Source: a virus. From it: a stretch of DNA of 39,635 bases. The notes beneath the pieces are model-generated. The model had not been told where the DNA came from, searched no databases, and worked only from the letters and a program-made list of their open reading frames with translations. The position numbers and the translations under genes are program-made. Every line of letters starts with the position of its first letter. Positions within the stretch are counted from its first letter, which is position 1. Where the stretch lies: positions 1 through 39,635 of IMG/VR virus record IMGVR_UViG_3300011116_001301. One strand, 5' to 3'. Of this stretch, positions 305 to 36,891 are shown piece by piece.

Positions 305-1300
305 TTATATTTTAGATGGGAAGAATAATTTTATTTCTTCCTGTGGTATTTGGTTTTCTATTTTTGATACTTCGCTACCGAAATGATAGCTTTTTATTCT
401 ACCATTTTGGAGGCTAAAATCTACCACATTATAACCTTTTGTTGGTTCTTTTTTATATTCCCAAGCCAGGACTTTATTTGCTGATTGGGGATTTCTTTTT
501 ACATAAACAGGGTAAGCATCGGCCCAAGTTGCGGGTTTCCAAGCACCATCTTTATATAACATTAGGACCAATTTACCATCATTATTTTTTGATAGTCCCA
601 AGTTTTTAAGGTTATAATAGTTCTGTATAAATTGAATTGAGTTTGCTTCTTTTTCATATTTTGGTTCAACGAAGAATGAGTTTTCTTGCCATCCGTGTAG
701 TCCCATATCTTCACCACCAGTATTTGCATGATTTGATTTCCATCTTCTCAATCTACCATCAGGTAATCTAATATATTTGCTTCCTTGTGAAGTTTCGAAG
801 TAAGTAATTGTTTTTAATAAGTCATCAACACCCTCTTTTAATTTTTTCTTTTTAACACAATTGGGATATCTTTTTCCGAACATTGTTTTCATTCCTTTTT
901 GTGTATAACCTTTCCAACATTTTTCGTTTAATAGTTCTTCCCTCAGTTTAATTGTTTTAAGTTTGGATTGTTCTTTTTTTAGGGTGATATAATCCAAACC
1001 TTTTTTTAATCTTTGTTTTGTTTCGGGATCTTTGGCGTTTTGGTGTGCTGCTCTTACCCTTTGGTGGATAAGGTTTATTATTTGAGATTGTCTTTTATGG
1101 GGTTTTGATTTAAAGCTTTGTTTGTTTAGGGTATCAATAATATCTTGTTTTGTTCTAAACTTTACTGAAACCGTGTCTTTTGGATTTTCATCAGTATATA
1201 ATCTTCTACCAGATCCTTTTGGTTTTTTCCCTGTTCCTGTTTTTGGATCGGCTTCTGATTGTATTTCTTCCCTTAGTATTTTTTTGATTAAATCTCTCAT
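305..1300 (-). CDS. Putative internal head protein with CWKGYxxKGM motif
   Basis: A 331-aa basic protein. It starts with an amphipathic helix, MRDLIKKILREE, resembling capsid-targeting peptides cut after (L/I)xE by T4-type prohead proteases. Further possible cut sites are LLNE (about residue 128) and KLKE (about 156). Between them lies a Cys-containing segment, CWKGYTQKGM...PNCVKKK, of a kind I recall from head-associated proteins of T4-like marine phages. The N-terminal third is Lys/Arg-rich, as expected of a DNA-packed internal protein. It has its own TATTTAT box 4 bases before the ATG and is flanked by terminators, so it is probably monocistronic and late. The precise function is unknown. 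Confidence 0.6.
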   Translation of the reverse strand: MRDLIKKILREEIQSEADPKTGTGKKPKGSGRRLYTDENPKDTVSVKFRTKQDIIDTLNKQSFKSKPHKRQSQIINLIHQRVRAAHQNAKDPETKQRLKKGLDYITLKKEQSKLKTIKLREELLNEKCWKGYTQKGMKTMFGKRYPNCVKKKKLKEGVDDLLKTITYFETSQGSKYIRLPDGRLRRWKSNHANTGGEDMGLHGWQENSFFVEPKYEKEANSIQFIQNYYNLKNLGLSKNNDGKLVLMLYKDGAWKPATWADAYPVYVKRNPQSANKVLAWEYKKEPTKGYNVVDFSLQNGRIKSYHFGSEVSKIENQIPQEEIKLFFPSKI

Positions 1301-1304
1301 AGAT

Positions 1305-1311
1305 ATAAATA
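1305..1311 (-). promoter_or_regulatory. TATTTAT box of the 305-1300 gene
   Basis: TATTTAT ends 4 bases before the ATG at 1300. It belongs to the recurrent second class of promoter-like box in this window. Confidence 0.5.
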
Positions 1312-1325
1312 CCTTATAAAATAAA

Positions 1326-1347
1326 AAACCCTCTATAACGAGGGTTT
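1326..1347 (-). terminator. Hairpin terminator
   Basis: AAACCCTC and GAGGGTTT are separated by 6 bases, followed on the minus strand by a T-run. The hairpin contains the stop codon of the 1333-1548 gene and insulates the next gene downstream. Confidence 0.8.
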
Positions 1348-1548
1348 AATATCTTGATAAAACTTATCATCTTTATTTGGTGGGATAAATGGATATCCAT
1401 AATCCGCAATCAGGTTTTCATCTTCTCCCTGATCATCTCCTTTACCTTGTCCGATATACCACTTGGTTTCAAAGCCATTATATATCTTCACAATTCCTAT
1501 TGTTCCATACCATACGGAATCAAATATTTTTCTCTTTGTTGTTTCCAT
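1333..1548 (-). CDS. Hypothetical 71-aa acidic protein
   Basis: Not assigned to a function. The sequence has an SVWYGTIGIVKI start and a conserved-looking KWYIGQGKG...DE..IADYGYPF core, which recalls small phage proteins of unknown role. No signal peptide or membrane segment. A TATTTAT box lies 4 bases upstream of its start (1553-1559) and a terminator overlaps its stop, so it looks like a single-gene unit. Confidence 0.7.
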   Translation of the reverse strand: METTKRKIFDSVWYGTIGIVKIYNGFETKWYIGQGKGDDQGEDENLIADYGYPFIPPNKDDKFYQDIKPSL

Positions 1549-1552
1549 TCTA

Positions 1553-1559
1553 ATAAATA
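1553..1559 (-). promoter_or_regulatory. TATTTAT box of the 1333-1548 gene
   Basis: TATTTAT with a 4-base spacer to the ATG at 1548. Confidence 0.5.
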
Positions 1560-1564
1560 TTTAG

Positions 1565-1855
1565 TTATTTAATAAAAACATAAGGGTATTGATTGGAGGT
1601 TTTTTCAATCCCACTAATGTAATCCCCAATATATTTCATTTGTTCATTTTTACTTAGATAATCTTTAAGATCACCCATTAAACTATCCACTTCAGTTTTA
1701 AGTGCCACTTGATTTGGATTTCCTTCCACCCTTGATGGTTTTGTTATCCTATAAGGTGTTTTAGTTCCAATCTCACAATCAATGAAAAATCTTCCATTGG
1801 TTGTATCTATAATTAAAGTTCCACCATCTAATAATGGTGTTATATTATTTATCAT
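1565..1855 (-). CDS. Hypothetical 96-aa protein
   Basis: Not recognised. A soluble protein with a beta-rich first half (TLIIDTTNGRFFIDCEIG) followed by a probable helix (VDSLMGDLKDYLSKNEQ). It starts 2 bases after the stop of the 1858-2094 gene and so belongs to the operon that begins with the DNA ligase. Confidence 0.65.
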   Translation of the reverse strand: MINNITPLLDGGTLIIDTTNGRFFIDCEIGTKTPYRITKPSRVEGNPNQVALKTEVDSLMGDLKDYLSKNEQMKYIGDYISGIEKTSNQYPYVFIK

Positions 1856-1857
1856 AT

Positions 1858-2094
1858 TTAGATATTTTGTAATTTATATATTTGTCCATCCGTTCCATCC
1901 AATTCAAGGGATATTCCAACCTCATTGATTATATACCATTTATCAAACATATACTTTTCATTTTGTGTAAGATGAAGTGTTGTTAAAGCTCTAACATTTC
2001 TAACAACACCAGTATTTATCCCACCATGTTTGGTGAAATGAATATATCTATCTCCAACCTTAAAGAGTGGTATTTTTTTGCTTATACTATTCAT
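1858..2094 (-). CDS. Hypothetical 78-aa protein of KVGDRYI type
   Basis: Not recognised. The opening, LFKVGDRYIHF, recalls the small single-domain proteins at 3209-3445 and 4082-4354 (FKIGETFFY, FKVGTEFRY), suggesting a family of small beta-barrel-like proteins. Its start overlaps the end of the ligase gene by 8 bases, so it is translated from the ligase mRNA. Unlike the two relatives it lacks the NGIPxxW tail. Confidence 0.65.
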   Translation of the reverse strand: MNSISKKIPLFKVGDRYIHFTKHGGINTGVVRNVRALTTLHLTQNEKYMFDKWYIINEVGISLELDGTDGQIYKLQNI

Positions 2095-3172
2095 AGTCCC
2101 TTATTCCTTTAACAAATGGGAATCTTGGAATACCATCAGGGGTTAAATTAAAGTATTTTACCGTTGCTTGTTTTCCGATTAGGTTATCCCTATCCTTCCA
2201 CATTTGGATACATACTTCCCAATTAAACTTTGGATTGGAATTAAATGTTTTTCCATCCTTAGTTTTTAAGATAAATGCTCCCAACATTCCTGTTTTATTT
2301 CCTGTTCCTTCTTCCACCCCAATAATCTCATATTCTTCATCAATGAATGATTTATGTTTCATTAAAGATTTTGTTCTCTTATTCTCATATTTCCCATCAA
2401 CCCTAATCATTTGTCCTTCATAACCAGCCATAATGTAATCCTCATAATATGCTGATACATCATTCATATTATCCAATTGTTCAGTTTTAACCAATACACA
2501 ACATTCAGGTAATTCAATGCTTGATAATTCCTTATATCTTTGTGTGAATGTTCCCTGATTGCTCGGTAAATCGTAAATGTGATACTGAAGTGATTTCTCA
2601 GATTCAATTAAATCTTTTTCTGTTGGTTTGGTTTTCTTTGCAAGGGAACAAATTGCGTTAAAGTCATTGGCGAATTTATCAGCATATAACTCACCATCAA
2701 AGATTAAATCTGGGTTTATATCAAATAATGGTTTAAGAGCATTGAAAATATGTGGAGCTGATACAATTGCTTTCCCATTTCTACTATACATTCCTTTAAT
2801 GGAAACAATACATCTAATACCATCCAATTTGGGTTGTGAAAATAATGGGAACTTTACCTTAGATTGTGCTTCCCAATCTTTGGCTAACATTGGCTTAAAG
2901 AATGTTTCATTATCAACACTATCCAATGTCTCAAAAAATCCACTCTCAATTTTCTTTTTATGTAAAGCTTGAGCTTCTTTAATTGCTTGTTCTTCACCTG
3001 ATGTTTCATTCTTTTTTCCAACATTTTTGGCTTGACAACAAGTCCATTCGGTAGTGGTTTTTTGTCCATCAATATAACCTGAAGTTGTCCTATAACAATT
3101 ACCTTGAACTTCAATTGTCCATTGTGTAGTTTTTCCGTTGGTTGCTCTTTTATATAATGTATTCATTTCCAT
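2087..3172 (-). CDS. ATP-dependent DNA ligase
   Basis: Seals nicks in duplex DNA through an enzyme-AMP intermediate, presumably in phage replication and repair. The nucleotidyltransferase motifs are in order: motif I QPKLDGIR with the AMP-accepting Lys (about residue 115), DGELY (motif III), GYEGQMIR (motif IV) and SLMKHKSF (motif V). An OB-fold-like tail carries VEEGTGNKTGMLGA and VKYFNLTPDG. The first 75 residues, with WTIEVQGN and a GxxTTTEW segment, look like an extra N-terminal module, perhaps WGR-like. The ATG at 3172 was chosen because a TATATTCG box ends 4 bases before it; an upstream ATG in the same frame would lie within or before that box. Confidence 0.93.
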   Translation of the reverse strand: MEMNTLYKRATNGKTTQWTIEVQGNCYRTTSGYIDGQKTTTEWTCCQAKNVGKKNETSGEEQAIKEAQALHKKKIESGFFETLDSVDNETFFKPMLAKDWEAQSKVKFPLFSQPKLDGIRCIVSIKGMYSRNGKAIVSAPHIFNALKPLFDINPDLIFDGELYADKFANDFNAICSLAKKTKPTEKDLIESEKSLQYHIYDLPSNQGTFTQRYKELSSIELPECCVLVKTEQLDNMNDVSAYYEDYIMAGYEGQMIRVDGKYENKRTKSLMKHKSFIDEEYEIIGVEEGTGNKTGMLGAFILKTKDGKTFNSNPKFNWEVCIQMWKDRDNLIGKQATVKYFNLTPDGIPRFPFVKGIRDYE

Positions 3173-3176
3173 AGCA

Positions 3177-3184
3177 CGAATATA
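3177..3184 (-). promoter_or_regulatory. TAnnTTTG-type box (TATATTCG) of the ligase operon
   Basis: TATATTCG followed by TGCT and then the ATG at 3172. The same variant TATATTCGTG precedes the phosphoesterase gene at 20977. Confidence 0.65.
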
Positions 3185-3208
3185 CAACAAATATTTTAAT
3201 CCACCAAA

Positions 3209-3445
3209 TTATATTTCCCAATTTTTCGGTATTCCGTTATCATATTCAACAATCCTTTCCTTAACGCAATCAAGGGAGTATTGTGAATGTAAGTGAAAAT
3301 GATTATATATCTTAGAATAATCTTGATTGACATACCTTGATGTAATCAATTTAATACCGCCAGGTTTATTCTGAACCTTAACCACAATTTGTGGCTCTGG
3401 TTCTATATCATAAAAAAATGTTTCTCCTATCTTAAAGTTTTCCAT
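3209..3445 (-). CDS. Hypothetical 78-aa protein with NGIPxxW tail
   Basis: Function unknown. A single small domain beginning FKIGETFFYDIE, related in layout to the 4082-4354 protein. It ends with YDNGIPKNWEI, the shared C-terminal tail found on seven proteins of this window. No signal peptide or membrane segment. It starts 3 bases before the stop of the upstream 3449-3871 gene and belongs to the same leftward operon. Confidence 0.7.
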   Translation of the reverse strand: MENFKIGETFFYDIEPEPQIVVKVQNKPGGIKLITSRYVNQDYSKIYNHFHLHSQYSLDCVKERIVEYDNGIPKNWEI

Positions 3446-3448
3446 ATT

Positions 3449-4074: not shown

Positions 4075-4081
4075 AAATCTT

Positions 4082-5267: not shown

Positions 5268-5268
5268 A

Positions 5269-5478: not shown

Positions 5479-5482
5479 ACCA

Positions 5483-5490: not shown

Positions 5491-5501
5491 ATACCTTTAT
5501 T

Positions 5502-5831: not shown

Positions 5832-5838
5832 ATCTTTT

Positions 5839-6504: not shown

Positions 6505-6633
6505 TTACTTCAACTTAGTTGTTTCAGTATAGTTTGTTTTTTGTTGTTTAATCCAGAAGATATGTTCTAATGTTTGTCTGTGTGTTAAACTACCTTTTAA
6601 GTGTGGTTTTGGTTTAATTGTTGAATGTTTCAT
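6505..6633 (-). CDS. Small 42-aa basic protein
   Basis: A short open frame whose ATG overlaps the TGA of the MORN-repeat gene (ATGA), suggesting translational coupling. The product is basic and hydrophilic (MKHSTIKPKPHLKGSL...), with no recognisable motif. It may be a real small protein or only a chance frame; the overlap and absence of a competing gene in this gap favour the former. Confidence 0.5.
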   Translation of the reverse strand: MKHSTIKPKPHLKGSLTHRQTLEHIFWIKQQKTNYTETTKLK

Positions 6634-7964
6634 AGTTTAGATATGTATGATGTTGATCCTAATAATTTATAGTAGTAATCATCTAATTTATTGATTGCTG
6701 GGTCCAAATATCTTTTATTTAATAAAGCTCTTTTAGATGGTTTAATACCATTAGCTTCTTTATTTTTGCTAATATGGAATATGGTTATATTTTCAGGTTC
6801 GTATCTTTCAATAAAATCAAGAGTTATTTTGGTAAGGGTTTCCATTATATTATATACATCATTTGTATTTAACAAACCTAAACCTTTTTTAATTGTGCTA
6901 TATTCTCTTTCCCATTTATTATCACCTAAATTATAGAATATAACCTCAAATTGATAATCATCTTTACCTGTGAAATTATATATAATTCTTCTATTATTTG
7001 GATCTGAATGTGATGGATCTAATTTATATGAATAAACTTGTCCTTCATTTAAGTTCTTTCCTTCAGTTAGGGATAAGTTTTTAGATTTACCATTTTTATA
7101 TATTATTTTATTATATAATGAACCATCAGAATTATAGTATTTCCAAATACCAACAGGTATTCCGTTTTTATATAAACCCCTAAAATGTAATTGACCATTA
7201 TAATAATATTCCCAATAACCTTCAGCTACCCCATTTTTATATGAACCCTTATATTCTAAATTACCATCACGATCATAATATTCCCACGCACCATCTAACT
7301 CACCATTCTTATATGAAGATTTTATTTCTAAATTACCATCTTCATAATATTCTTCCCAAATACCTTCTTTTTTACCATCAAGCGTATATTGATTGATAGG
7401 CTTACCATTTTTAATTGGTTGCTCTTTATTCCATTTAGCGTATCTGCTATTCTCTCCAGATAAGCCTATCGGTCTAAATAATTTCTTTTTAGGTGTTTCA
7501 GCTTCAGTTAGGGGTAATTCTTTAATCACTTTACTATTTTTATATAATTCTTTACTATGTAATTTACCATTTTCATAATAATACTCCCATATCCCTTCTT
7601 TCTCACCATTTATATATGAACCCTTAGCGAATAATTTACCATCTTCATCATAAAACTCCCATATACCATCTTCTTTACCATTCTTATAATTCCCTTTACC
7701 TAATAATTCACCTGTACTTAAATACTCTTCCCACATACCTTGTTTTACCCCTTTAATAAAGAAACCTTTACCGGATACCATTTCATCGTCAATCCAATCA
7801 TCCCAATAACCTATTGGTTTTCCATCATGCGTATATTGATTTATCTGAACCCCATCAACTATTGGTTGTTCTTTATTCCATTGAAGCCATCTTGATTTCT
7901 CACCAGATAAACCAATAGGAGCGAAAAGCTTTTTCTTTTGTTCTTCGGTAATAATAATCTTCAT
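6630..7964 (-). CDS. MORN/YwqK-repeat protein with duplicated ITEEQKKKLF module
   Basis: A 444-aa protein. It begins MKIIITEEQKKKLFAPIGLS, then has about five MORN-like repeats of the pattern (K/E)(E/D)GxWExYxxxGxLxxKgxYkNG. Near residue 160 a second KKKLFRPIGLSGE module starts another set of about four repeats. A C-terminal domain of about 130 residues has no repeats. Cut-site-like sequences (ITEE, LTEAE, LTEG, LNEG) sit at the module borders, suggesting processing by a prohead protease. The ATG at 7964 was chosen because MKI(I/V)ITEEQ also begins the proteins at 37913 and 38301. The first half is closely similar to the MORN-lysozyme protein at 33455. Likely a packaged protein; target unknown. 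Confidence 0.72.
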   Translation of the reverse strand: MKIIITEEQKKKLFAPIGLSGEKSRWLQWNKEQPIVDGVQINQYTHDGKPIGYWDDWIDDEMVSGKGFFIKGVKQGMWEEYLSTGELLGKGNYKNGKEDGIWEFYDEDGKLFAKGSYINGEKEGIWEYYYENGKLHSKELYKNSKVIKELPLTEAETPKKKLFRPIGLSGENSRYAKWNKEQPIKNGKPINQYTLDGKKEGIWEEYYEDGNLEIKSSYKNGELDGAWEYYDRDGNLEYKGSYKNGVAEGYWEYYYNGQLHFRGLYKNGIPVGIWKYYNSDGSLYNKIIYKNGKSKNLSLTEGKNLNEGQVYSYKLDPSHSDPNNRRIIYNFTGKDDYQFEVIFYNLGDNKWEREYSTIKKGLGLLNTNDVYNIMETLTKITLDFIERYEPENITIFHISKNKEANGIKPSKRALLNKRYLDPAINKLDDYYYKLLGSTSYISKL

Positions 7965-7968
7965 ATTC

Positions 7969-9063
7969 TTATTTTGCCATTGCATATAATTTAGCTAATT
8001 TCTTGATAACAACATCAGCTTCCTTAGCATTATATTCTATTTCTTTTGAGAAGAAATCCTCATTATCTTTATACTTAAATATATTTTTCTGAACCTTTAA
8101 CATAAACTTCATTGGTTCTTGACTTTTTGTCATCATTACTTGGAGCGGTGATAAATCACCAAATACCATTGAAATCATCATACCCATTGTGTTCTTTTGT
8201 AGATTTTCTCTAATATCAGTTAAAAACAAATCCACAACTTCAGACATATCCATTTGTTCAATATCTTCATAACCTTTCATATTGAGATAATATTCAATAT
8301 CATCAATATAGTTGTATAAATCCCAATAGAACTTCTTATATGTCATATTTTTAATTTTATTTAAGTGAATATAAGTTTCATCACTCTTTAAGAAGGCTAA
8401 AAAATCTTTTTTAGTGATACGTTTTGATTGAATTAAAGCAGCAATTTCACTCGGTCTTACCAATGTTTCTGCTAACGAAACAAAGTATATTGAAAAACAA
8501 AACTTAGCTATTGGTTTTATAGGGAAATTGGCATATATAGAACTATTCTGATACTTTGCTACAGCCAATAAGTTATCATATTTACCTTTTGTGTTATCGT
8601 ATCCGTGTTTCAACTCGTGAGTTATTTTAGATACCATAAAATGTTTTTTATTTGTGAAATATTTTTTAATACCATCTCTAATATCTTTATCCGATATTGT
8701 AGGCTCTCCATCATCACCAGGACAATAAAAATTAAACATTAAAGTCAATACATCACTTTTGTTTTTTATTGCTTTAACCCCATCCATTCTAAATGAAGAT
8801 TTAATAGATAAACCAGCTAAAACAATTTCATCAGCCTCAGGATGTGGTTCTACTAATATATTATAAACAATTTCTTTATATACCTCATCACCTATCTTAA
8901 ATGTATCTTTAATCACATTAGGCGTATCCATTTCCTCATCCCTTTCATCCGTTATAATATAGTTAAACTTACCTGAAAGTATTTTGTTATAGATTTCATT
9001 AGCAGTTTCTATTATACCCAATGGAACTCCAAGCGCTTCATTTAATGTATCAATCAATTTCAT
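7969..9063 (-). CDS. HExxH metalloprotein, putative packaged metallopeptidase
   Basis: A 364-aa protein with an HELKH zincin motif (about residues 149-153, in the context KITHELKHGYDN), which fits a Zn-dependent peptidase: the two His bind metal and the Glu activates water. The third ligand is not obvious. It begins MKLIDTLNEALGV, a short helix ending LNE, like a capsid-targeting peptide. A TATTTAT box lies 7 bases before its ATG and a terminator lies just upstream, so it begins a late-type unit with the MORN gene (4 bases apart). A peptidase delivered with the DNA could cleave a host factor or cell-wall peptides. Family assignment beyond HExxH is not possible by eye. Confidence 0.6.
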   Translation of the reverse strand: MKLIDTLNEALGVPLGIIETANEIYNKILSGKFNYIITDERDEEMDTPNVIKDTFKIGDEVYKEIVYNILVEPHPEADEIVLAGLSIKSSFRMDGVKAIKNKSDVLTLMFNFYCPGDDGEPTISDKDIRDGIKKYFTNKKHFMVSKITHELKHGYDNTKGKYDNLLAVAKYQNSSIYANFPIKPIAKFCFSIYFVSLAETLVRPSEIAALIQSKRITKKDFLAFLKSDETYIHLNKIKNMTYKKFYWDLYNYIDDIEYYLNMKGYEDIEQMDMSEVVDLFLTDIRENLQKNTMGMMISMVFGDLSPLQVMMTKSQEPMKFMLKVQKNIFKYKDNEDFFSKEIEYNAKEADVVIKKLAKLYAMAK

Positions 9064-9070: not shown

Positions 9071-9077
9071 ATAAATA
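9071..9077 (-). promoter_or_regulatory. TATTTAT box of the HExxH gene
   Basis: CTATTTATA with a 7-base spacer to the ATG at 9063. Confidence 0.5.
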
Positions 9078-12301: not shown

Positions 12302-12697
12302 CTACCCTAATATATTTTGAACATCTTCTGGTAAATTACTAAACTTAATCAATTTCGCTTTTACTGTTGGTAGGTTATATTTAATAGATTTTTGAATCCT
12401 ATGATTCCCATCCAATATATATTTAATCGTATTATCATCGTTCATAAGAATTAACACTGGATATTGTATATCAGACTTTTCTATCTTCTCAATTTCCTCA
12501 GTATTACCATCCCAACTTAAAACTATCTTTTTGAGTTTTTCAGTATCTATTTCTTGAACTTTAATATCTTTTGTAAAGTCTAATATTTGTCTTAGTGTAA
12601 CCGTTTCTCCATTATGACCAGTCCAAGATGTATCATCCAAACCTTCGTTCAAAAACTCTCGTATGGTTGTTTTAATAATTTTTCTCAAATCTTTCAT
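12302..12697 (-). CDS. ParB/sulfiredoxin-like protein with capsid-targeting-like N-terminus
   Basis: A 131-aa protein. Residues 1-19 (MKDLRKIIKTTIREFLNEG) form a basic amphipathic helix ending LNE-G, like a prohead-protease propeptide. The rest resembles a ParB/Srx fold: IQYPVLILMND then YILDGNHRIQKS (about residues 93-112), the GNHR signature used for nucleotide binding in this superfamily, then VKAKLIKF. It might be a CTP- or ATP-binding or nuclease-like protein ejected with DNA. It lies downstream of the 12709-12918 gene with a TATTTAT box in that gene's end. Confidence 0.6.
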   Translation of the reverse strand: MKDLRKIIKTTIREFLNEGLDDTSWTGHNGETVTLRQILDFTKDIKVQEIDTEKLKKIVLSWDGNTEEIEKIEKSDIQYPVLILMNDDNTIKYILDGNHRIQKSIKYNLPTVKAKLIKFSNLPEDVQNILG

Positions 12698-12708: not shown

Positions 12709-12918
12709 TTACATAAATAGTTCATCCAATGTTTTATCACTAATTCTATCTTTAACACTTTCTAATTTTGATATATGTTCATACATTTCTTCTTGCATCA
12801 TATAATCCATAAATTTTTCATAATATCCTTTAGGTAACACTAATATTTTTTCAGGATTAACTAATATTGTTTCAAATACAGGTTTTTCACAACCAATTTC
12901 TAATTCTATTATTTTCAT
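12709..12918 (-). CDS. Hypothetical 69-aa protein
   Basis: Not recognised. It begins MKIIELEIGCEKPVFETI and continues with a helix rich in Met and Glu (YEKFMDYMMQEEMYEHI). An upstream in-frame ATG would read through the end of a tRNA-like element, so the ATG at 12918 is preferred. It is the first coding region after the structured RNA array and may share its transcript. Confidence 0.6.
   Translation of the reverse strand: MKIIELEIGCEKPVFETILVNPEKILVLPKGYYEKFMDYMMQEEMYEHISKLESVKDRISDKTLDELFM
12713..12719 (-). promoter_or_regulatory. TATTTAT box upstream of the ParB-like gene
   Basis: ACTATTTATG lies 15 bases before the ATG at 12697. The spacer is longer than in the other TATTTAT units, so the call is weaker. 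Confidence 0.35.
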
Positions 12919-14859: not shown

Positions 14860-15420
14860 TTATATTTCATTTTCCCAATCACTCGGAATACCATTACCAA
14901 TATCCTTCACACCTGTTGCCATCAAACCATCACTAATAGAACCACCAGCGATTGCGTGAATACTTCCCCAATCATCAGAACTAATATAACCTGTTGCCAA
15001 ACTACCATTACCAATAGTAGAAGGTGTATTAAACCGACCTTCACGAATATCATACCACTCCACATAACCCATTGGCACTATACCTTCAACCCTATTTCTT
15101 TCCATATCCTTTATAAGTTTTTCATATGCCTTATATATTGTGAGCCTTGAAGGTCTTCCCTCAGATTTATTAAATCCATTGGTAAAACTTGCGTAAGGGT
15201 GATTGGCAATCCATATTTCTTCATTACCCAAAATAGCACTACAACCAGTATTTCCTAAATCCCTGAAAGTATGTTCTTTCATTAAACCCCTCAATTTCTT
15301 ATCCCATTCAGAGGAATAAGATTCGTTCATACTCCAATATTGGGGATTGAATATGATTTTAATCCAAATAAAAAAATCTGAGATCCAACTTAAATCAATT
15401 GTTATTGTTTCTTTTTTCAT
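14860..15420 (-). CDS. Conserved phage protein with NGIPxxW tail
   Basis: A 186-aa protein. The region NPQYWSMNESYSSEWDKKL...HTFRDL...IWIANHPYASF recalls a phage hypothetical family of unknown function. The C-terminal 40 residues are Gly/Ser/Ile-rich and end DIGNGIPSDWENEI, with the shared tail. It overlaps the 3' end of the PurA-family gene by 4 bases (ATGA), so the two are co-translated. Confidence 0.72.
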   Translation of the reverse strand: MKKETITIDLSWISDFFIWIKIIFNPQYWSMNESYSSEWDKKLRGLMKEHTFRDLGNTGCSAILGNEEIWIANHPYASFTNGFNKSEGRPSRLTIYKAYEKLIKDMERNRVEGIVPMGYVEWYDIREGRFNTPSTIGNGSLATGYISSDDWGSIHAIAGGSISDGLMATGVKDIGNGIPSDWENEI

Positions 15421-16400
15421 ATACTTAACGCTGTTTTACTAAATACACATCTTACTTTTAATACATTCTCAATATAATTACAAAACTCATCAATGGTTTC
15501 TATTTCCATTAAAATACCTCTATGGTATAATTTATATACACCAACACTCTCCAACACATCTAATTTATTGAATACTATCTCACTACACCCATTTATATTA
15601 GATGCCATCAAAATATTATCCAAATCAATCCAATTCACTTGTCTTGCTCTACCTGTGGTTGAACCGTACTCATTCCCAACCTCTCTTATCTTATTGAATA
15701 CCAAATCATTACTCTCAAATTGTTTTGCTCCAACATATGTATTATATGCTTTAGCGATACCAATTACTTTTCTTATTTTTTGTGGTGGGACACCGTTCAT
15801 AATTGCTCCACCGACTGTACAATGTGAAGATGTTACATAAGGATAATCACCCCAATCAATATCCAATTCAAATCCCTGAGCACCTTCAAATAATATTCTA
15901 CACTCATCTTCGTTATGTAATTCTTCATATATATCAATTACATTTGCTTTCATATAATCTGAAAACCTCACACCTTTTCTCCAATACTTATCCCTGTAAG
16001 CTGGACCATTACCTGTTTTTGTTGTTCCAATTTTACTTTCACCTTCCTCTTCTTTAAGATGTTTAGGTGTGATAACATGAACCCTTTTATCAACAAATAA
16101 AAAATCTTTAACATTAATACCTTCTTTTTCAAGCCCCTCAATTTCTTCAATAAGTTTAATTGGATTTACAACACAACCAGGTCCAATAATTGATTTAATA
16201 CCATAAAAAACACCAACAGGTATAAAATGTGTAACAAACTTCTTTTCATTGTGAAAGAATGTATGTCCAGCATTTCCACCACCATTATATCTAATAACGT
16301 GTGTATATTCATTAGGGGTTGCGGCTAAGTGATGTGCCACTTTACCTTTACCTGTGTCTCCAGCTTGGAGATCTACAATAACATCTGCGTATTTAATCAT
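15417..16400 (-). CDS. Short PurA-family adenylosuccinate synthetase (PurA or PurZ0-like)
   Basis: The family couples a 6-oxopurine nucleotide with aspartate, driven by GTP (PurA, PurZ0) or ATP (PurZ). At 327 aa it is much shorter than bacterial PurA (about 430) and matches the archaeal and phage PurA/PurZ size. Visible: LQAGDTGKGK phosphate loop with the Asp of PurA kept (D15), while the usual Glu next to it is Thr; GGGNAGHT with catalytic His (H46); GTTKTGNGPAYRDK; WGDYPYVTSSHCT; the aspartate-binding loop STTGRARQVNW; and NKLDVL, the base-recognition motif of GTP users. PurZ enzymes lose the Asp, so this copy looks more like PurA or a PurZ0-type intermediate. It follows a lipoprotein gene with no gap. 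Confidence 0.85.
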   Translation of the reverse strand: MIKYADVIVDLQAGDTGKGKVAHHLAATPNEYTHVIRYNGGGNAGHTFFHNEKKFVTHFIPVGVFYGIKSIIGPGCVVNPIKLIEEIEGLEKEGINVKDFLFVDKRVHVITPKHLKEEEGESKIGTTKTGNGPAYRDKYWRKGVRFSDYMKANVIDIYEELHNEDECRILFEGAQGFELDIDWGDYPYVTSSHCTVGGAIMNGVPPQKIRKVIGIAKAYNTYVGAKQFESNDLVFNKIREVGNEYGSTTGRARQVNWIDLDNILMASNINGCSEIVFNKLDVLESVGVYKLYHRGILMEIETIDEFCNYIENVLKVRCVFSKTALSI

Positions 16401-18771: not shown

Positions 18772-19803
18772 TTACGCAAACATATCAAAAAAAACAAAAT
18801 CACCATTTCCTTTCACACCAATATTACCATCGTGTGTGTCAAAATCAAAAGGTTTGTAAGGACCACTCCAAAGTTCTCCAAGAGAGTTTACTAATTTATT
18901 TAATGTTTCTTTAAAATAAGTAATTTCTGGGTAGTGTTTATATTCATAATCCATACTATTCGGTTTTGATTTTTTTCTTAGTGTTTCATAATAAAATTTT
19001 TTAATTTTATCATCATTCATATAAACTGATTTTATCACACCAATTGGTTTTATACCTCTGATTTCATTTTTTGTTGAAGGTCTGTCTTTCCATTGTAACC
19101 ACCAAGTATATTCAAAAGCTAAACGAACAACATCTTTTTCTTCAGGTGTTAAAGATCTAATTTTTTCTAAACAAATAATATATAATTTCTCCAATTTAAC
19201 CTCATCTTTTTTTATTTTTCTTTTAATAAAGTTTTTAACTATTTTTTCTTTTTCCTTTTCTATTTTTGCAGGAGAATAATTATCAGGGGCTTTCCACCAA
19301 TCCATTTCCTTAAACTTTTTAATCCTATCAGATTTTACCATATTTTTATCATCATTAGATGGAGGTCCAATAGTTGAACTAAATTGTTTCTCAGAAGGAA
19401 GATCAACCTCTTTAATAAAATAGTATTTAGCACTTGATGGTATTATACCTTTATGATTTTGTATAATATCTTTTATTTTTTTATACTCACCGATATTAGT
19501 AGTCACTTTTATTACAACATCGCTTCCTTGAGGTGGTAATTCACCAATAAAACCATTACTCATAAAGTTTGATGGTATTTTTAAGCCACCACTAACATTA
19601 AACGCAATACCAAATGCACCAGCACCTAAATATTTTAAGTTTTGATTTGGTAATACTTTTTGGATTATGTTTCTAAGTTGTAATGTGTCCCCTAAAAATG
19701 TATTTTTAACAACATTATCTTTATCAGTCACACCACTTAAATCAATATATTCTTTCAATATATTTTTAATAATCTTATTCAACTCTTGTTCATTTATATT
19801 CAT
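18772..19803 (-). CDS. Kinase-like protein with capsid-targeting-like N-terminus
   Basis: A 343-aa protein. Residues 1-20 (NINEQELNKIIKNILKEY) form a helix ending ILKE, similar to prohead-protease propeptides. A kinase-like fold follows: a Gly-rich loop LKYLGAGAFGIAFNV (about 55-70), VVIKVT with the ATP-anchoring Lys, and near the end FDFDTHDGNIG...FVFFDMFA, which fits the catalytic-loop Asp/Asn and the DFG-like Asp of the APH/protein-kinase superfamily. The chain stops right after the DFG-like Asp, so activation segment and C-lobe helices are missing or lie earlier in the chain. If active and ejected, it could phosphorylate host proteins at the start of infection. Confidence 0.55.
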   Translation of the reverse strand: MNINEQELNKIIKNILKEYIDLSGVTDKDNVVKNTFLGDTLQLRNIIQKVLPNQNLKYLGAGAFGIAFNVSGGLKIPSNFMSNGFIGELPPQGSDVVIKVTTNIGEYKKIKDIIQNHKGIIPSSAKYYFIKEVDLPSEKQFSSTIGPPSNDDKNMVKSDRIKKFKEMDWWKAPDNYSPAKIEKEKEKIVKNFIKRKIKKDEVKLEKLYIICLEKIRSLTPEEKDVVRLAFEYTWWLQWKDRPSTKNEIRGIKPIGVIKSVYMNDDKIKKFYYETLRKKSKPNSMDYEYKHYPEITYFKETLNKLVNSLGELWSGPYKPFDFDTHDGNIGVKGNGDFVFFDMFA

Positions 19804-19807: not shown

Positions 19808-19814
19808 ATAAATA
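19808..19814 (-). promoter_or_regulatory. TATTTAT box of the kinase-like gene
   Basis: ACTATTTATTGGTATG, 4-base spacer to the ATG at 19803. Confidence 0.55.
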
Positions 19815-21442: not shown

Positions 21443-21721
21443 TTATACTAATTTTTTAATTTCTTCAAACTTTCTCTTACTTATTTTACTATCCTCTACC
21501 CTATAATCATTAGAGAATACATATCTTGTAGGGTTCATATGATCAGGTTCTAATAAATAATACTTACCTATAATATTATTGGCTCTAATATAAGGACCTT
21601 CTACCAACCATTTACGTTCAATATCTTCAATAACACCAATCACCTTAAAGTAATCGGTATCACCATCAATCCAAACCCTTTTAATGTAAAAAGTTTTATT
21701 TATATTACTTATACTTCTCAT
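21443..21721 (-). CDS. Hypothetical 92-aa protein
   Basis: Not recognised. Begins MRSISNINKTFYIKRVWIDG, beta-rich, then a short basic C-terminal helix (KRKFEEIKKLV). It is the third gene of the leftward unit starting at 22240. No export signal. Confidence 0.65.
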   Translation of the reverse strand: MRSISNINKTFYIKRVWIDGDTDYFKVIGVIEDIERKWLVEGPYIRANNIIGKYYLLEPDHMNPTRYVFSNDYRVEDSKISKRKFEEIKKLV

Positions 21722-25429: not shown

Positions 25430-25436
25430 TATTTAT
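25430..25436 (+). promoter_or_regulatory. TATTTAT box of the 25442 gene
   Basis: ATATTTATATAGTATG on the plus strand: 5-base spacer to the ATG at 25442. Divergent from the lysis pair. Confidence 0.5.
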
Positions 25437-25441: not shown

Positions 25442-26887
25442 ATGAGTTTAAGAACACTAATTGAAAGTATATTGCTTGAAGGTGAAATAGATAACATCAT
25501 CAAGAACAGAAAAGAAAAGATGATTAAAAAATATTCAGGTGAGTCATTATTTTTTGATTTAGAGGATTTTGAGAATGATTTTAATAGATACACTAAATTA
25601 TTTATTGATAATATACCTACACCAAAAAAATACATATCTAAATATTATGATTTGGTTGAGAAATGGTATGAATATTCGGCTTTAGATATTGATGAGGTTT
25701 TTCAATCAATGTATGAGTATTTCAATAAGTGGATGATATATAAAGCAAAAAACCTTATTACTAAAGATATTTTAGCACAAACACCAGAATCTTTAATTGA
25801 TATAGTTGATGAGGCAGAAGAAAAGGAAATCACAAGAAAGGCTGAAAAAGAAATCAATAAGATATATGAGGACAATAGGTGGTTAGTAATAAGAGTTAAA
25901 AGCCAAGAAGCTTCTTGTAAGTATGGTTCTGAAACTAGATGGTGTATATCAGCAACTGAAGGTGGTAATAGATATACAGGATATGGTTATTCTGAAAACA
26001 ATTTTATTTATTTTATTATTGATAAGAAAAATAGAATGGATGATGCTGATGTTTTATATAAGATGGCAGTATTGGTAAATAAAAAAACAGGAAGTATTCA
26101 AGTTTGGGATGCTGCAGATAAAGAACTAACACCAAATCAAGAAAGTATTGTTAAAAGATTTATACCTGATATATTTGAAGCAATTAGTAAAGATAGTAAA
26201 ATCGCAATGGATGAAATTACTGAAGATTATATTAGATTTGTATTAAACGATGATTATTCACTTAAAAATATTAAGGATTATAAAAGAACAGCATTAAAAT
26301 ATAATACGGATTATTCTATGTTGGAATTAAAGTTCCAATTTGGGGAATCTAGACACTTTGTAGAAGTTATTGTAGATGTTAAAAATAACAACATATCAGC
26401 AACATTTTATCGTTACGAACTAATAAATAACGAAGAAACAGGTGAAAGATATTATAGTTTTACCCCAACAAGTATTATATCTAAGGTATCAAATGAAAGG
26501 ATAACAAAAAGTAATTTCGTTAAACTAATAAAAGAATTAGTAATTGATTTACTCAATTCACCTGAAGTTAAAAAGTATTTTATTGACAACCCTAAAGAGT
26601 ATTTTTCTAATGTAAATCTATATAAAGACATTGAAACTATGGGAACTAAAAAAGTCCCTCAAGAAGCGTTTATTACAGCAATTAAATTATTAAAAGAAAA
26701 GGGTGAGCAAAATATTACAGCGATAAGAAGAATTGTTGATCCAAAATTACAATCATCACATAATGTAAAACCATTACTTAGTTCTCTTTATTCATTTGGT
26801 TTAATTAAATTAGAAAAAAGGGGTAGAAACGTAATAGTTGTCCCTACCCCTAAATTGGTTAAAACTCCTTTGGATAAACTTATTTAA
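25442..26887 (+). CDS. WC-motif family protein 1, candidate packaged protein
   Basis: A 481-aa protein. MSLRTLIESILLEGE is an N-terminal helix ending LLE-G, like a prohead propeptide. The WC module is at about residues 145-225: DNRWLVIRVKSQEASCKYGS, then TRWCISA with W167-C168, YFIIDKK, and a strand pair ending SIQVWDAADKELTP. The C-terminal 75 residues (AIKLLKEKGEQNITAIRRIV, then HNVKPLLSSLYSFGLIKLEK) look like a winged helix, so it may bind DNA. Family function unknown. It is a lone rightward gene between lysis and synthetase genes. Confidence 0.6.
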   Translation: MSLRTLIESILLEGEIDNIIKNRKEKMIKKYSGESLFFDLEDFENDFNRYTKLFIDNIPTPKKYISKYYDLVEKWYEYSALDIDEVFQSMYEYFNKWMIYKAKNLITKDILAQTPESLIDIVDEAEEKEITRKAEKEINKIYEDNRWLVIRVKSQEASCKYGSETRWCISATEGGNRYTGYGYSENNFIYFIIDKKNRMDDADVLYKMAVLVNKKTGSIQVWDAADKELTPNQESIVKRFIPDIFEAISKDSKIAMDEITEDYIRFVLNDDYSLKNIKDYKRTALKYNTDYSMLELKFQFGESRHFVEVIVDVKNNNISATFYRYELINNEETGERYYSFTPTSIISKVSNERITKSNFVKLIKELVIDLLNSPEVKKYFIDNPKEYFSNVNLYKDIETMGTKKVPQEAFITAIKLLKEKGEQNITAIRRIVDPKLQSSHNVKPLLSSLYSFGLIKLEKRGRNVIVVPTPKLVKTPLDKLI

Positions 26888-28604: not shown

Positions 28605-29030
28605 TTATTTATAATTTTTAAGTTCTCTTTTTGTATCTCTTTCAATATCTTTGGTTTTAATGCTATCTTTTTTATCAAAAGATTTCTTACCTTTTCCCAC
28701 ACCAATAACTACTTTAGCCAATCCTTTTACAAAGATTAGTTCCAAAGGGATTAAAGCATATCCTTTTTGGATAAACTTATTGCGGATTTTGGTTATTTCT
28801 TTCTTATTCAATAACAAGGTTTTATCTCTTTTCTCATCAGGTGAAAAAGGATTGTTTTTATTCACATATAAACCTTTAAGAATAATTGAATTGGATGTGA
28901 TTATGCAGAAAGCATCGGTGAAGTTAGATTTACCATTTCTGATAGATTTAACTTCATCCCCTTTAAGAATAATACCTGCCGTGTATTGTTCCTCAATATT
29001 GTAATCATAAAATGCTTTCCTGTTTTTCAT
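28605..29030 (-). CDS. smpB: SmpB, SsrA (tmRNA)-binding protein
   Basis: A 141-aa protein that aligns by eye along the full SmpB length: NRKAFYDYNIEEQYTAGI, LKGDEVKSIRNGKSNFTDAF (the EVKS(L/I)R.G..N..D.. signature), TLLLNKKEITKI, then KGYALIPLELIFVKGLAKVV, and a basic C-terminal tail VGKGKKSFDKKDSIKTKDIE...R. The body binds the tRNA-like domain of tmRNA and mimics the missing anticodon arm; the tail reaches into the ribosome decoding centre. Phage-encoded SmpB is unusual. No tmRNA gene was found in the window, but five tRNA-like RNAs lie 15 kb away. It has a TATCTTTG box 4 bases before the ATG. Confidence 0.92.
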   Translation of the reverse strand: MKNRKAFYDYNIEEQYTAGIILKGDEVKSIRNGKSNFTDAFCIITSNSIILKGLYVNKNNPFSPDEKRDKTLLLNKKEITKIRNKFIQKGYALIPLELIFVKGLAKVVIGVGKGKKSFDKKDSIKTKDIERDTKRELKNYK

Positions 29031-31339: not shown

Positions 31340-31340
31340 A

Positions 31341-33404: not shown

Positions 33405-33441
33405 ATTATGAAGTATATTAAATAAAAACCAAAAAAGAAAA

Positions 33442-33448
33442 TATTTAT
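33442..33448 (+). promoter_or_regulatory. TATTTAT box of the MORN-lysozyme gene
   Basis: AATATTTATGATAATATG, 6-base spacer to the ATG at 33455. Confidence 0.5.
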
Positions 33449-33454
33449 GATAAT

Positions 33455-35050
33455 ATGAGCGATACAAAAAAGAAAAAGTTATTCACACCTATTGGTTTAT
33501 CCGGTGAAAAATCTAGATGGATACAATGGAATAAAGATCAACCAATTAAAGATGGGATAAGGATAAATCAATACACACATGATGGTAAAAAAACTGGTTA
33601 TTGGGAAAGTTATTGGGCTAATGATAAATTAGAGAGTAAGGGTTCATATATAAATGATAAAAAAGATGGTTATTGGGAGTGGTATTGGATGAATGGTAAT
33701 TTATGGTCTAAAGGTTCATATATAAATGATAAGCAGTATGGTTTATGGGAGGGTTATAATAAACAAAGTGGCGAGTTAGAATATAGGTATATATGGAAAA
33801 ATGGTAAATTAGTTGAAAAATTACCTATAGCCGAAGCTGAAACGCCTAAAAAGAAGTTATTTAGGCCTATTGGCTTATCCGGTGAAGATAGTAGATATGA
33901 TAAATGGAACAAGGAACAACCTATTAAAGATGGAGTAAGAATAAACCAATATACAAATGATGGAAAGAAAGAGGGTTATTGGGAGGAATATCGTAATGGT
34001 TATTTATATTCTAAGGGTTTATATATAAATGATAAAAAAGAAGGTAATTGGGAGAATTATTATGAAAATGGTGGATTAGCCACCAAAGTTCCATATAAGA
34101 ATGATAAAATGAATGGTATGTGGGAACAGTATTTCCATGAAGGTCAATTACGAGCTAAAGGTTTATATAAGGATGGTAAGGAAGATGGTGTATGGGAACA
34201 TTATTTCCCTAATGGTGATTTGTATAGTAGATACTTATATGATAATGGTGAAGTAGTTGAACAATTGTTTATGGTTGAATCTAAAACCCCTTCATTTTTA
34301 TTAAAAGAAGAAATGGTTTTAATAAGAGAAGGAAATGTTCAGGATTATATTGAAAATATCCTATCCAAAATTAAAAACTTACCATATGAAACAAAAAAGA
34401 AGTATCTTACAATCGCAATTTCAACCCTATTAGGTTATACATCTTACCCTGTTATTCAATCAATTATTGATAAATCACCAGATAAAGAAGCAAGAGAAAT
34501 AACCCATAGAGTGTTGAATAAAAAAGATAATTTATCTATGTTTAACGATGGAACAAAACTTCACCTATCTAAGAAAGGACTTCAACATATAGTAGATGAA
34601 GAAAAACCAAAACTAATAGCATACGCATTGGGTGATGGTAAGATAACAGTCGGTTATGGACACGCTGAACCTATTGGAACAACAAAACTTAAAGTGGGAC
34701 AAAAAATAAGCAAAGAACAAGCAAAACAATATCTTAAACAAGATCTTAAAGTAGCTGCCGATGGAGTTAGAAGAATGTTTAGCGAATGGAAAGAACAAAA
34801 CAAAAACTATAAAGTCACTCAAGATATGTTTGATGCTTTGGTTTCAATGGCTTTTAATATAGGCGTATCAGGTTTAAGACAATCAGAAATGGTTAGACAT
34901 CTTAAATTAGGTGATTATAAAACAGCAGGACAACTCATTAAACAAACAAATATAAATCCAGATACATTCCCAGGTCTTGAAAAAAGAAGGGATAGGGAAT
35001 CTAATATGTTTTTATCATATTTATCAAAACCAACTGACGTAAATACATAA
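33455..35050 (+). CDS. MORN-repeat protein fused to GH24 lysozyme
   Basis: A 531-aa fusion. Residues 5-130 are KKKLFTPIGLSGEKSRW plus three MORN-like repeats; a second KKKLFRPIGLSGE module at about residue 130 leads four more repeats. A spacer with LLKEEMVLIREGN (possible cut site) is followed, from about residue 360, by a T4-lysozyme-like GH24 domain: LQHIVDEEKPKLIAYALGDG with the catalytic Glu, KITVGYGHAEP with the active-site Thr region, and FDALVSMAFNIGVSGLRQSE near the end. It should cut murein glycan strands. Processing at LIRE would free the lysozyme. A virion-borne lysozyme would help DNA entry; the MORN part may bind membrane or protein partners. Confidence 0.82.
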   Translation: MSDTKKKKLFTPIGLSGEKSRWIQWNKDQPIKDGIRINQYTHDGKKTGYWESYWANDKLESKGSYINDKKDGYWEWYWMNGNLWSKGSYINDKQYGLWEGYNKQSGELEYRYIWKNGKLVEKLPIAEAETPKKKLFRPIGLSGEDSRYDKWNKEQPIKDGVRINQYTNDGKKEGYWEEYRNGYLYSKGLYINDKKEGNWENYYENGGLATKVPYKNDKMNGMWEQYFHEGQLRAKGLYKDGKEDGVWEHYFPNGDLYSRYLYDNGEVVEQLFMVESKTPSFLLKEEMVLIREGNVQDYIENILSKIKNLPYETKKKYLTIAISTLLGYTSYPVIQSIIDKSPDKEAREITHRVLNKKDNLSMFNDGTKLHLSKKGLQHIVDEEKPKLIAYALGDGKITVGYGHAEPIGTTKLKVGQKISKEQAKQYLKQDLKVAADGVRRMFSEWKEQNKNYKVTQDMFDALVSMAFNIGVSGLRQSEMVRHLKLGDYKTAGQLIKQTNINPDTFPGLEKRRDRESNMFLSYLSKPTDVNT

Positions 35051-35057
35051 AACACGA

Positions 35058-35064
35058 TATTTAT
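35058..35064 (+). promoter_or_regulatory. TATTTAT box of the 35071 gene
   Basis: GATATTTATACTAATATG, 6-base spacer to the ATG at 35071. Confidence 0.5.
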
Positions 35065-35070
35065 ACTAAT

Positions 35071-36891
35071 ATGGGATTTTTACAATTTTTATTCGAAGGA
35101 AAAGTCGAGGACTTTAAAAAAATATTCAAGGACAAATATACAACCCCTGAACAAATGGACGCTATTGTCAGAGTTTCATCTGAAGTAGAACCTAAACACA
35201 AATATTTAATTTGGTTAGCTAAATCACTTACCAAACCAACAACCGATGAAGCCGCATTTGCCGAAGAATTAGCAAACGCACAAGAACTTTTAATGAGGTT
35301 TAATACAATTGGTTCTAATCTACCTATTAAAGATATTTCACAATACAAAAGTATATCTGAATTAGCAGAAGCAATTAAAACTTATGAGAATAGACAAAGA
35401 AGAACAATTAAAAAGGTTGATGGAGCTGATATAATCTACGATGATGATGATTATACAATTGTTCATCCAAAAGAATATAAAGCATCTTGTTTCTATGGTA
35501 AAGGTTCTAAGTGGTGCACAGCTTCTGAAGATAGTGATAGTAATTGGAGAAGATATAATGAAGATGCTAAATTATTTTATTTCTTATCAAAGAAATTACC
35601 TACAAGTGATAGATTCTATAAAGTAGCTATATTACAAAATTACAATGGGGAAAGAACATTTTGGGATGCACCTGATAAACCTTTCACTAGTGGTTGGATA
35701 ATAGGGACTGATTACTTGAATGATTTACTTAAAATTGTAGATCAATACATGAAAGATAATTATTCAAGGGAAGTTGAAATATTCTCAGATAAACAAAAAG
35801 CACAAGCCGAAAGAGAAAGATTGAGAAGAATTGAAGCTCAAGAAAGATTAAATAGAAAAAGACAAGAAGCCGAAAGTAGAAGAGAAAATAATGAATGGGA
35901 TCCTGAAGAAATTACACATGGTGAAGTTGGAGCGAAAGCTTGGGCTTTATTTACTTTTTTAACTCAGTATGATGATCTTGAAGCAAAACAACCAGGAGAT
36001 ACTGAAAGAATTGAAACTATTGAATCAGAATTGGAAAGATTGGGTGAATTACAAAGTCAATATGAAGCTGAAGGTAGAGATTTAACTGAAATTAACGAAC
36101 AAATATCAGAATTAGAAGAAGAAAAAGAAGGTTTAGAAAAAAGAATTGATGTGTATGATATGATACCCGAACACAATAATTATGGTATGACAGTATTTAG
36201 TATCGCAAGCATTGATCGTCAAGGTTACGAATATACTGTCGGTGATGAAGAACAAGTTGAACAAGCCGCATATGAATATGAAAAAGATTTAATTAGAGAT
36301 ACAGGTTATGATAGTTTTAATCCGAATTATATTAAAAAATTTATTAATGCTGACGCTGTAGCTGATGAAGCAAGAGAAAATTATAATTATTGGCTCTATG
36401 ATGAACCAAGTTCATATTTAGATGATAATCAAAGATCTTTAAGTAAAGAACAAGAAAAAGAAATTGCTGAATACCAAGAAAAGATTGATAAATATAAAAG
36501 ATTTCTTAAAAAGGCTGAAGATCGTCAAGTAGAGTTTGATTCCGATAGTAGTCAATATAAAGCAATACAAAAAGGTTTAGATAAGTTAAATGATTTAATA
36601 ACTGACCTTGAGTATGATATTGAAAATATTAAAGATGACCCTCAAGGTGATTTTAGTGAGGATTTAATTGAAGAAAAAATTGATGAGTTAGTTGATGATG
36701 TAAGAAATAACCCTTTAGATTGGTTAGAGGAAATGGGTAGTAATATTGCGGATTATATTGATGAAGATGAAATAATTAAAGATATTATTAGTGATAATGG
36801 TTATTACAATATATTAAATGGTTATAGTGGTGAAGGTGACGAAATAACATGGGATGGTGAAACATACCATATAATGAATACTGATCGATAA
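35071..36891 (+). CDS. WC-motif family protein 3, candidate packaged protein with coiled coils
   Basis: A 606-aa acidic protein. It opens MGFLQFLFEGKVEDF, a very short hydrophobic helix ending LFE-G. The WC module is at about residues 125-200: DDDYTIVHPKEYKASCFYGK, then SKWCTAS (W148-C149), LFYFLSKK, TFWDAPDKPF. Residues 240-355 and 455-520 are long charged helices with coiled-coil character (QAERERLRRIEAQERLNRKR; ELEEEKEGLEKRID). No enzymatic signature was recognised. It forms a three-gene rightward series with similar boxes. Confidence 0.6.
   Translation: MGFLQFLFEGKVEDFKKIFKDKYTTPEQMDAIVRVSSEVEPKHKYLIWLAKSLTKPTTDEAAFAEELANAQELLMRFNTIGSNLPIKDISQYKSISELAEAIKTYENRQRRTIKKVDGADIIYDDDDYTIVHPKEYKASCFYGKGSKWCTASEDSDSNWRRYNEDAKLFYFLSKKLPTSDRFYKVAILQNYNGERTFWDAPDKPFTSGWIIGTDYLNDLLKIVDQYMKDNYSREVEIFSDKQKAQAERERLRRIEAQERLNRKRQEAESRRENNEWDPEEITHGEVGAKAWALFTFLTQYDDLEAKQPGDTERIETIESELERLGELQSQYEAEGRDLTEINEQISELEEEKEGLEKRIDVYDMIPEHNNYGMTVFSIASIDRQGYEYTVGDEEQVEQAAYEYEKDLIRDTGYDSFNPNYIKKFINADAVADEARENYNYWLYDEPSSYLDDNQRSLSKEQEKEIAEYQEKIDKYKRFLKKAEDRQVEFDSDSSQYKAIQKGLDKLNDLITDLEYDIENIKDDPQGDFSEDLIEEKIDELVDDVRNNPLDWLEEMGSNIADYIDEDEIIKDIISDNGYYNILNGYSGEGDEITWDGETYHIMNTDR

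Follow-up and report, generated by a model that had tools for sequence, protein, structure and literature searches.

Why should proteins with unrelated bodies, encoded by one phage, begin with the same kind of peptide? The question is raised by six genes in the 39,635-base stretch of DNA analysed here (the window), a complete viral record of IMG/VR (IMGVR_UViG_3300011116_001301) that is itself a genome fragment. The initial annotation noted that these genes encode different proteins behind short helical leaders ending in (L/I)xE, and proposed that they form an arsenal packaged in the head and delivered to the host with the DNA. From sequence comparison with relatives, we consider it highly probable that the leaders are capsid-targeting propeptides of the T4 type, with release by a protease. 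All six open reading frames and their leaders, 9-18 residues in length, lie where they had been annotated, and the TATTTAT box that had been assigned to most of the genes precedes every one of them (6/6), 4-15 nt upstream of the start codon. The six genes are listed below, with a slash at the tag junction and tag classes as defined in the following paragraphs.

305-1300, minus strand: 331-aa protein with GTGKKPKG and CWKGY...PNCVKK motifs in its body; class B tag MRDLIKKILRE/E at 1268-1300; TATTTAT box at 1305-1311, minus strand
7969-9063, minus strand: 364-aa HELKH zincin-like protein; putative propeptide MKLIDTLNE/A at 9037-9063, ending at a family junction; TATTTAT box at 9071-9077, minus strand
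12302-12697, minus strand: 131-aa protein with a DGNHR motif; tag MKDLRKIIKTTIREFLNE/G at 12644-12697; TATTTAT box at 12713-12719, minus strand
18772-19803, minus strand: 343-aa protein; class A tag MNINEQELNKIIKNILKE/Y at 19750-19803; TATTTAT box at 19808-19814, minus strand
25442-26887, plus strand: 481-aa WC-family protein; class B tag MSLRTLIESILLE/G at 25442-25480; TATTTAT box at 25430-25436, plus strand
35071-36891, plus strand: 606-aa WC-family protein; putative propeptide MGFLQFLFE/G at 35071-35097, ending at a family junction; TATTTAT box at 35058-35064, plus strand

Taken alone, the (L/I)xE motif is a weak argument; comparison with relatives makes the case strong. A bare [LIVMF]xE falls within residues 7-24 of 32% of untagged proteins by chance, and the positional enrichment of bare [LI]xE, only 1.5-2.5 fold, was rejected as sufficient evidence. 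In a pair test, 1,635 proteins from eight genomes or fragments of T4-like relatives were compared over their first 30 residues, and only pairs with non-homologous bodies (residue 36 onward) were kept. Similar N-termini on unrelated bodies were found in 365 pairs at a score of at least 60 and in 691 pairs at a score of at least 50, against 0 and 2 pairs, respectively, in an internal control window. Applied to T4 as a control, the test returned the known IPII/IPIII targeting peptide, MKTYQEFIAE/A, as joint top-scoring pair; the other joint-top pair resembles two GIY-YIG endonucleases, and nothing else was comparable.

Clustering of the N-termini defined classes A (MKKIVRLTESDLVRLVKRVISE), B (MNLQENIRRILREE or MKDLIKKILREE), C (MNKNILNEVNRMRQIMGLNE), D (MKYIITESQLDKII), E (MKKFVITEEEKKRILSLYEQ) and F (MKIIITEEQKKKLFIPRRIDE). 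Hidden Markov models (HMMs) of the class A-E tags matched 251/1539 N-termini and 10/1539 internal segments. Matches were frequent in distant relatives with long genomes, whose terminases are 37-49% identical: 58/285 in G015 (261 kb), 43/208 in G029 (196 kb), 45/250 in G026 (209 kb), 52/308 in G023 (294 kb) and 23/238 in G032 (270 kb). About 10-20% of the genes of each genome appear to be tagged. In the window, 6/53 proteins of at least 90 aa were matched (background 10/1539; binomial 1e-6), a figure that is slightly circular since the training set contained window members; three of the six matches, 305, 18772 and 25442, are on the list above. The tags of 305 and 18772 have 11 and 15 partners, respectively, with a score of at least 40 among unrelated bodies in other genomes. 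The 12302 protein shares 15 of its first 18 residues (83%, E 5e-4) with G005_33236-33904, from the longest contig of the same clade, and nothing detectable beyond, so that the two bodies are unrelated. The tags of 7969 and 35071 are supported by conserved family junctions rather than by peptide partners. A 22-residue tag searched against isolates with tblastn gave no match, the query being probably too short. Identical tag residues are encoded by the same codon in 57% of cases, against 49% expected from codon usage; on this comparison we reject nucleotide-level conservation as the cause of the shared N-termini, and the differing codons argue for selection on the peptide.

The tags also appear to be modular, as relatives swap classes on one body. 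A script counted 58 pairs of homologous bodies in different tag classes, some of which are fuzzy D/F splits. A body containing ...RYMFFSNLEQM... carries a class A tag in G015 and a class B tag in G026 and G023, and the same distribution was found for the C-terminal region of the 35071 protein, which is common to class A tagged proteins of G015 and class B tagged proteins of G023 and G026. The 305 ortholog G029_184021-184506 has another class B leader, MTLQESIRRILREELLNE, and the 25442 ortholog in contig L014 (G001) has the leader MSLRTLIENILLE/G.

Where the tags end is equally informative. Glu occupies the last position in 38/48 class A tags, the next column holding 0.68 bits, and class B ends with Leu in 39/44 and Glu in 41/44. 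In class E, the helix is followed by a variable linker and then by a conserved [LVI]xE/Q, so that the end motif is kept apart from the helix. Overall, [LIVMF]xE occurs in 98-100% of the class A and B tags and of the tags of LR756508, a 484-kb relative, vs 32-44% of untagged proteins; the end motif of 35071 in the window is F-x-E (LFE). The strongest single case for the junction is the HELKH family of the window, with four members. Their leaders (MKLIDTLNE, MVKFTKDVLLE, MIDQRIQVLLNE and a longer leader with RIINE at its end) differ in length and sequence, and the junction [LI]xE/ALGVP is invariant after all four. The HExxH motif annotated at 7969 is indeed HELKH and is kept in all four members found (HELKH, HEVFH, HEIFH). 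Similarly, WC-family relatives of 35071 have the leaders MGFLQFLFE/GK, MNLSKVLLE/GR, MIIIE/GK, MKFITLLLE/GK and MDILLE/GK, with a common xE/G[KR] junction. In T4, gp21 cuts after L/I-X-E and the propeptides of internal proteins measure 10-19 residues (PMC9026906). The major capsid proteins of relatives have a putative propeptide site, placed by eye alignment at the position homologous to the T4 cut, that reads QASFLINE/ASS in G015, HLINE followed by S or A in G026 and G032, QLIRE/A in G044 and QLLKE/A in LR756508. As far as aligned residues can tell, the tag ends are the T4 gp21 motif, of the same type as this capsid site.

The window is part of a freshwater T4-like myovirus. Six contigs of the same clade were retrieved through the 35071 protein (69-73% identical), the longest of which, G005 (98 kb), overlaps the right end of the window with conserved gene order and encodes homologs of the T4-like gp17 terminase, gp20 portal, gp25 and gp6. 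The top matches of its terminase among isolates (tblastn) were T4-like myoviruses, including immuto of Flavobacterium. No close relatives of 7969 and 18772 were found in viral contigs. TAnnTTTG is a Bacteroidota-type promoter; because promoter-like sites of this form lie upstream of genes here, and given the relationship with immuto, the host is probably a member of the Bacteroidota.

Are the tagged genes equipped like head genes? In these relatives, phrog_207, the gp21-type head maturation protease, was detected in G015, G023, G026, G029, G032, G044, G048, LR756508 and immuto. PF04586 and PF03420 gave no match as protease probes, PF03420 having none anywhere, hence the use of phrog_207. A correlation between tags and protease over unrelated T4-like contigs was discarded as uninformative, as the protease-negative contigs are fragments and the sampled stretches are regions around PurA. 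In LR756508, 27/91 genes at 140-222 kb are tagged, vs 2/203 in the other parts of the genome that were covered (p 2e-13); the region at 140-222 kb holds the terminase (142 kb), the protease (156-158 kb) and the capsid gene (172 kb). In G044, tags were found on 7/17 head-locus genes vs 2/46 others (p 9e-4), and immuto likewise has tagged head-locus genes, e.g. MRTLQEKYNAIQEGKFSKEHFIAE/A. T4 encodes its prohead-core proteins gp67 and gp68 between gp20 and gp21, and a gene in the corresponding portal-protease interval is tagged in G015 (MVKFGILKTKIETLLLE/S), G044 (MKKSELKQIIKEELKKAL..), LR756508 (MNKEKLKDVIRKEVKSALNE/I) and immuto (MKKSQIVKAVQEVLEE); in contigs of the window's own clade, a gene beside the portal gene carries MTFGKIKQDINNILFE/S. 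From its position, we predict that this tagged gene encodes a prohead-core protein in the gp67/gp68 slot.

Among upstream 7-mers, TATTTAT shows the highest enrichment in 7/8 genomes or fragments; it is fourth in the small window, where the overlapping CTATTTA comes first. It was found upstream of 127/221 tagged genes, compared with 313/1414 untagged ones (OR 4.75, p 4e-25). The box stands in front of the terminase, portal and core genes in G005, of the scaffold, protease, core and portal genes in G015 and G026, and also of gp25 and several large tail genes, and is lacking in 14/14 replication and metabolism genes (ligase, PurA, AsnRS-like, SmpB, aminotransferase, exonucleases, peptidase, PhoH, ClpA, sigma, SbcC, DnaB, dUTPase), the names of box-bearing and box-free genes coming partly from reading translations and not in every case from family searches. 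In G015 and G026, the capsid gene has no box of its own and sits downstream of the box-bearing scaffold gene. In the window, the box precedes 13 genes, including all six listed, 33455 and 36925. We infer that the box is a late promoter, and the common box suggests that the tagged genes may be co-expressed with the late head genes. The window and its relatives contain two promoter-like classes: TATTTAT, whose distance to the start of virion and tagged genes is 4-6 or 13-17 nt, and the Bacteroidota-type TAnnTTTG, directly before many other genes. Transcript leaders behind either class would be very short or absent.

These data fit a mechanism in which a large set of late gene products would start with an amphipathic helix that ends in [L/I]xE and acts as a propeptide, about 9-25 residues long. 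By binding the prohead scaffold core, the propeptide would recruit unrelated proteins into the assembling head; during head maturation, the gp21-type prohead protease would cut after Glu and free the proteins inside the capsid, from which they would probably be ejected along with the DNA when the next host cell is infected. We infer scaffold binding, cleavage, virion presence, ejection and the function of each cargo. Capsid targeting is the best explanation because the junction has the gp21 motif, the tags are modular, the box is common with head genes, tagged and head genes cluster in some relatives, a putative core protein is tagged and relatives encode a gp21-type protease. Of the arsenal proposed initially, packaging would thus stand, and delivery to the host extrapolates from T4.

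Several observations weigh against this reading. In the stretches sampled from protease-positive T4-like phages that are more distant, class A-E tags were found in 3/356 proteins, and tags therefore do not simply track the protease. The tagged genes of G015, G026 and G032 are dispersed over the genome with no head-locus concentration, class D tags often have no clear [LI]xE end, and several tagged proteins are cell-wall hydrolases that could equally belong to the tail. Finally, the initial annotation suggested a search for a gp21-like protease and its capsid sites; relatives with sequenced head loci encode the protease and have putative capsid sites, and neither the protease nor a full capsid gene was found in the window and same-clade contigs, all of which are fragments.

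How do other explanations compare? That the six N-termini are a chance pick of (L/I)xE in helical N-termini has a negligible probability: the bare motif is indeed common in untagged proteins (32%), but the excess of pairs (365 vs 0), the HMM matches (251 vs 10) and the box in front of all six genes contradict it. It is also very improbable that the shared N-termini reflect translation or expression, as a conserved 5' coding sequence by the TATTTAT box with no role for the peptide. Tags and box are statistically linked, as this would predict, but identical residues are written with different codons, and classes of unrelated sequence have a common [LI]xE end.

The tags might instead be amphipathic helices that load proteins elsewhere in the virion (tail tube, baseplate) or dock them at the inner membrane or assembly site, Glu being a helix cap and no cut taking place. 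Tagged cell-wall hydrolases (SLT+PG_binding, M23, lysozyme+PPK2) would suit such a location, and some tagged genes adjoin tail genes in contig G009. We nevertheless hold it to be quite unlikely, as conservation stops at the gp21 motif even behind the variable linker of class E, divergent leaders are followed by an invariant [LI]xE/A junction, the portal-protease-capsid interval is crowded with tagged genes in two relatives, and the predicted prohead-core protein is itself tagged. This last point cuts the other way for the idea that tagged proteins are head-assembly factors (scaffold/core or DNA-condensing) that are packaged and cut and act only in the head, with no host effectors among them. 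Head-locus motifs (CWKGY..PNCV, STTGxVAGYxTPxAF) recur on several tagged bodies, and T4 IPIII may itself act in head assembly (PMC9026906). Many bodies, however, resemble enzymes (metallopeptidase, lysozyme, transglycosylase, PPK2), and relatives differ in their repertoire, which makes a purely structural role unlikely; being packaged and cut, such factors are a sub-case of capsid targeting, and the confidences in the two overlap.

What would the tags carry, if they are capsid-targeting propeptides? Domains on tagged proteins include HExxH metallopeptidase, MORN repeats, phage lysozyme, M23 peptidase, the WC family, DGNHR/ParB-like motifs and SLT transglycosylase with peptidoglycan-binding and GDSL domains; L186:6125-8074(-) is a class C tagged fusion of polyphosphate kinase 2 (PPK2) to phage lysozyme. 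The WC family (Y-G-x-x-T-x-W-C) proved larger than annotated, with at least five members in 15 kb (25442, 31341, 35071, 36925, 39030). Its PHROG matches are weak and of unknown function, distant matches occur in Pseudomonas jumbo phages (Paride group), and a model of the domain of moderate quality (pLDDT ~70-84 in the core) had no significant PDB match. Other assignments fared less well. The 12302 protein, annotated as ParB-like, does have the DGNHR motif, and it matches phrog_17560, a family whose function is unknown. The kinase-like label of 18772 was not confirmed: the protein shows motif-like residues only, with no Pfam or PDB sequence support and one weak PHROG match (E 0.015), and its structure model, built without an alignment, has a pLDDT of 34.

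The list of six is incomplete, as 6630, 37913 and 38301 bear a second tag type, MKIIITEEQKKKLF. Further tagged or possibly tagged genes of the window are:

6630-7985, minus strand: 451-aa MORN-repeat protein; class D/F tag (M)KIIITEEQKKKLF, with an internal ATG as the probable true start
33455-35050, plus strand: 531-aa MORN and phage lysozyme protein; N-terminus akin to the class F region (KKKLFTPIGLSGE); TATTTAT box at 33442-33448
36925-37908, plus strand: 327-aa WC-family protein; possible late [LI]xE site, RFLNE/D, at residue 27; TATTTAT box at 36914-36920
37913-38296, plus strand: 127-aa protein; class D/F tag MKIVITEEQKKKLF; the G005 ortholog has a class A tag in front
38301-38798, plus strand: 165-aa protein; class D/F tag MKIVITEEQKKKLF

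Small proteins at 1-276 and 21443-21721 have an MRSI N-terminus, similar to that of the capsid-segment mini-genes described below, and other bodies; they make up another short N-terminal family, one that lacks an [LI]xE end. The window also encodes a PurA/adenylosuccinate-synthetase-like gene with hundreds of viral relatives (15417-16400, minus strand), which could have a PurZ-like role in base modification, and an SmpB-like phage protein, recognised by eye from its translation (28605-29030, minus strand).

A scan of viral contigs for the capsid gene of this clade returned only capsid-segment mini-genes and more distant relatives. These tandem mini-genes of 70-115 aa, with an MR[ST][IL]K N-terminus, resemble excised segments of the T4-like major capsid protein and lie in contigs of the window's clade (L012:4930-5175(-), L166:15773-16493(+), L200:1104-1845(+), L196:11086-11849(+)). 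They match capsid residues ~366-428 (E 1e-14 to 1e-18) and ~555-605 (E to 1e-8) and are conserved in six contigs, raising the question of whether they are decoys or assembly regulators. In G005 only, a gene that looks TnpB/OrfB-like by eye, L011:17683-18870(-), lies between two of them.

The closest known systems are IPI, IPII, IPIII and Alt of T4 (Straboviridae), where a short N-terminal peptide with an L/I-X-E junction is found on unrelated bodies; relatives of the window also share the gp21-type protease and the gp20-core-gp21-gp22-gp23 gene order. T4, however, has one tag class on few proteins and a single such pair, whereas several unrelated classes on dozens of proteins (~10-20% of genes) are seen here, and its cargo families are not those of the window group. 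In phiKZ and SPN3US, a gp21-related protease cuts head proteins after Glu and many inner-body and ejection proteins are packaged and ejected (PMC9026906, PMC10052503), but the cleavage motif of phiKZ is S/A-X-E and no set of short helical tags that can be interchanged is described for these proteins. The polyvalent proteins of phages and conjugative elements are predicted early effectors injected with DNA, with zincin metallopeptidases, ParB-like and peptidoglycan-directed domains (PMC5512222). They are multidomain and were found by domain linkage, whereas most of the proteins described here combine a targeting tag with one or two recognised domains; no window protein is a multidomain polypeptide with disparate activities. 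Our literature search found no description of such a tagged set in this phage group, which is weak evidence of novelty given its partial coverage (few subscription journals or preprints).

Head proteins that phages inject are difficult to predict, and detailed knowledge of them comes from T4 and a few giant phages. We give about even weight to the broader proposal that, in a widespread freshwater T4-like lineage, 10-20% of genes encode packaged, protease-released effectors with at least five interchangeable tag classes, and that each virion brings dozens of proteins into the host. The cargo, including metallopeptidases, cell-wall hydrolases, polyphosphate kinase and WC-family proteins, could, with similarly balanced confidence, be delivered at the first moment of infection. 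This proposal ranks below capsid targeting because ejection adds a step taken from T4. If the tags are capsid-targeting propeptides, what a large, abundant phage group injects would be readable from sequence, and hundreds of early-effector candidates would follow, some of which might be anti-defence proteins. Capsid targeting would then prove to be a module that became exchangeable in evolution, several unrelated solutions having converged on one protease motif, and the tags would provide a natural set of targeting peptides for the study of cargo entry into phage heads.

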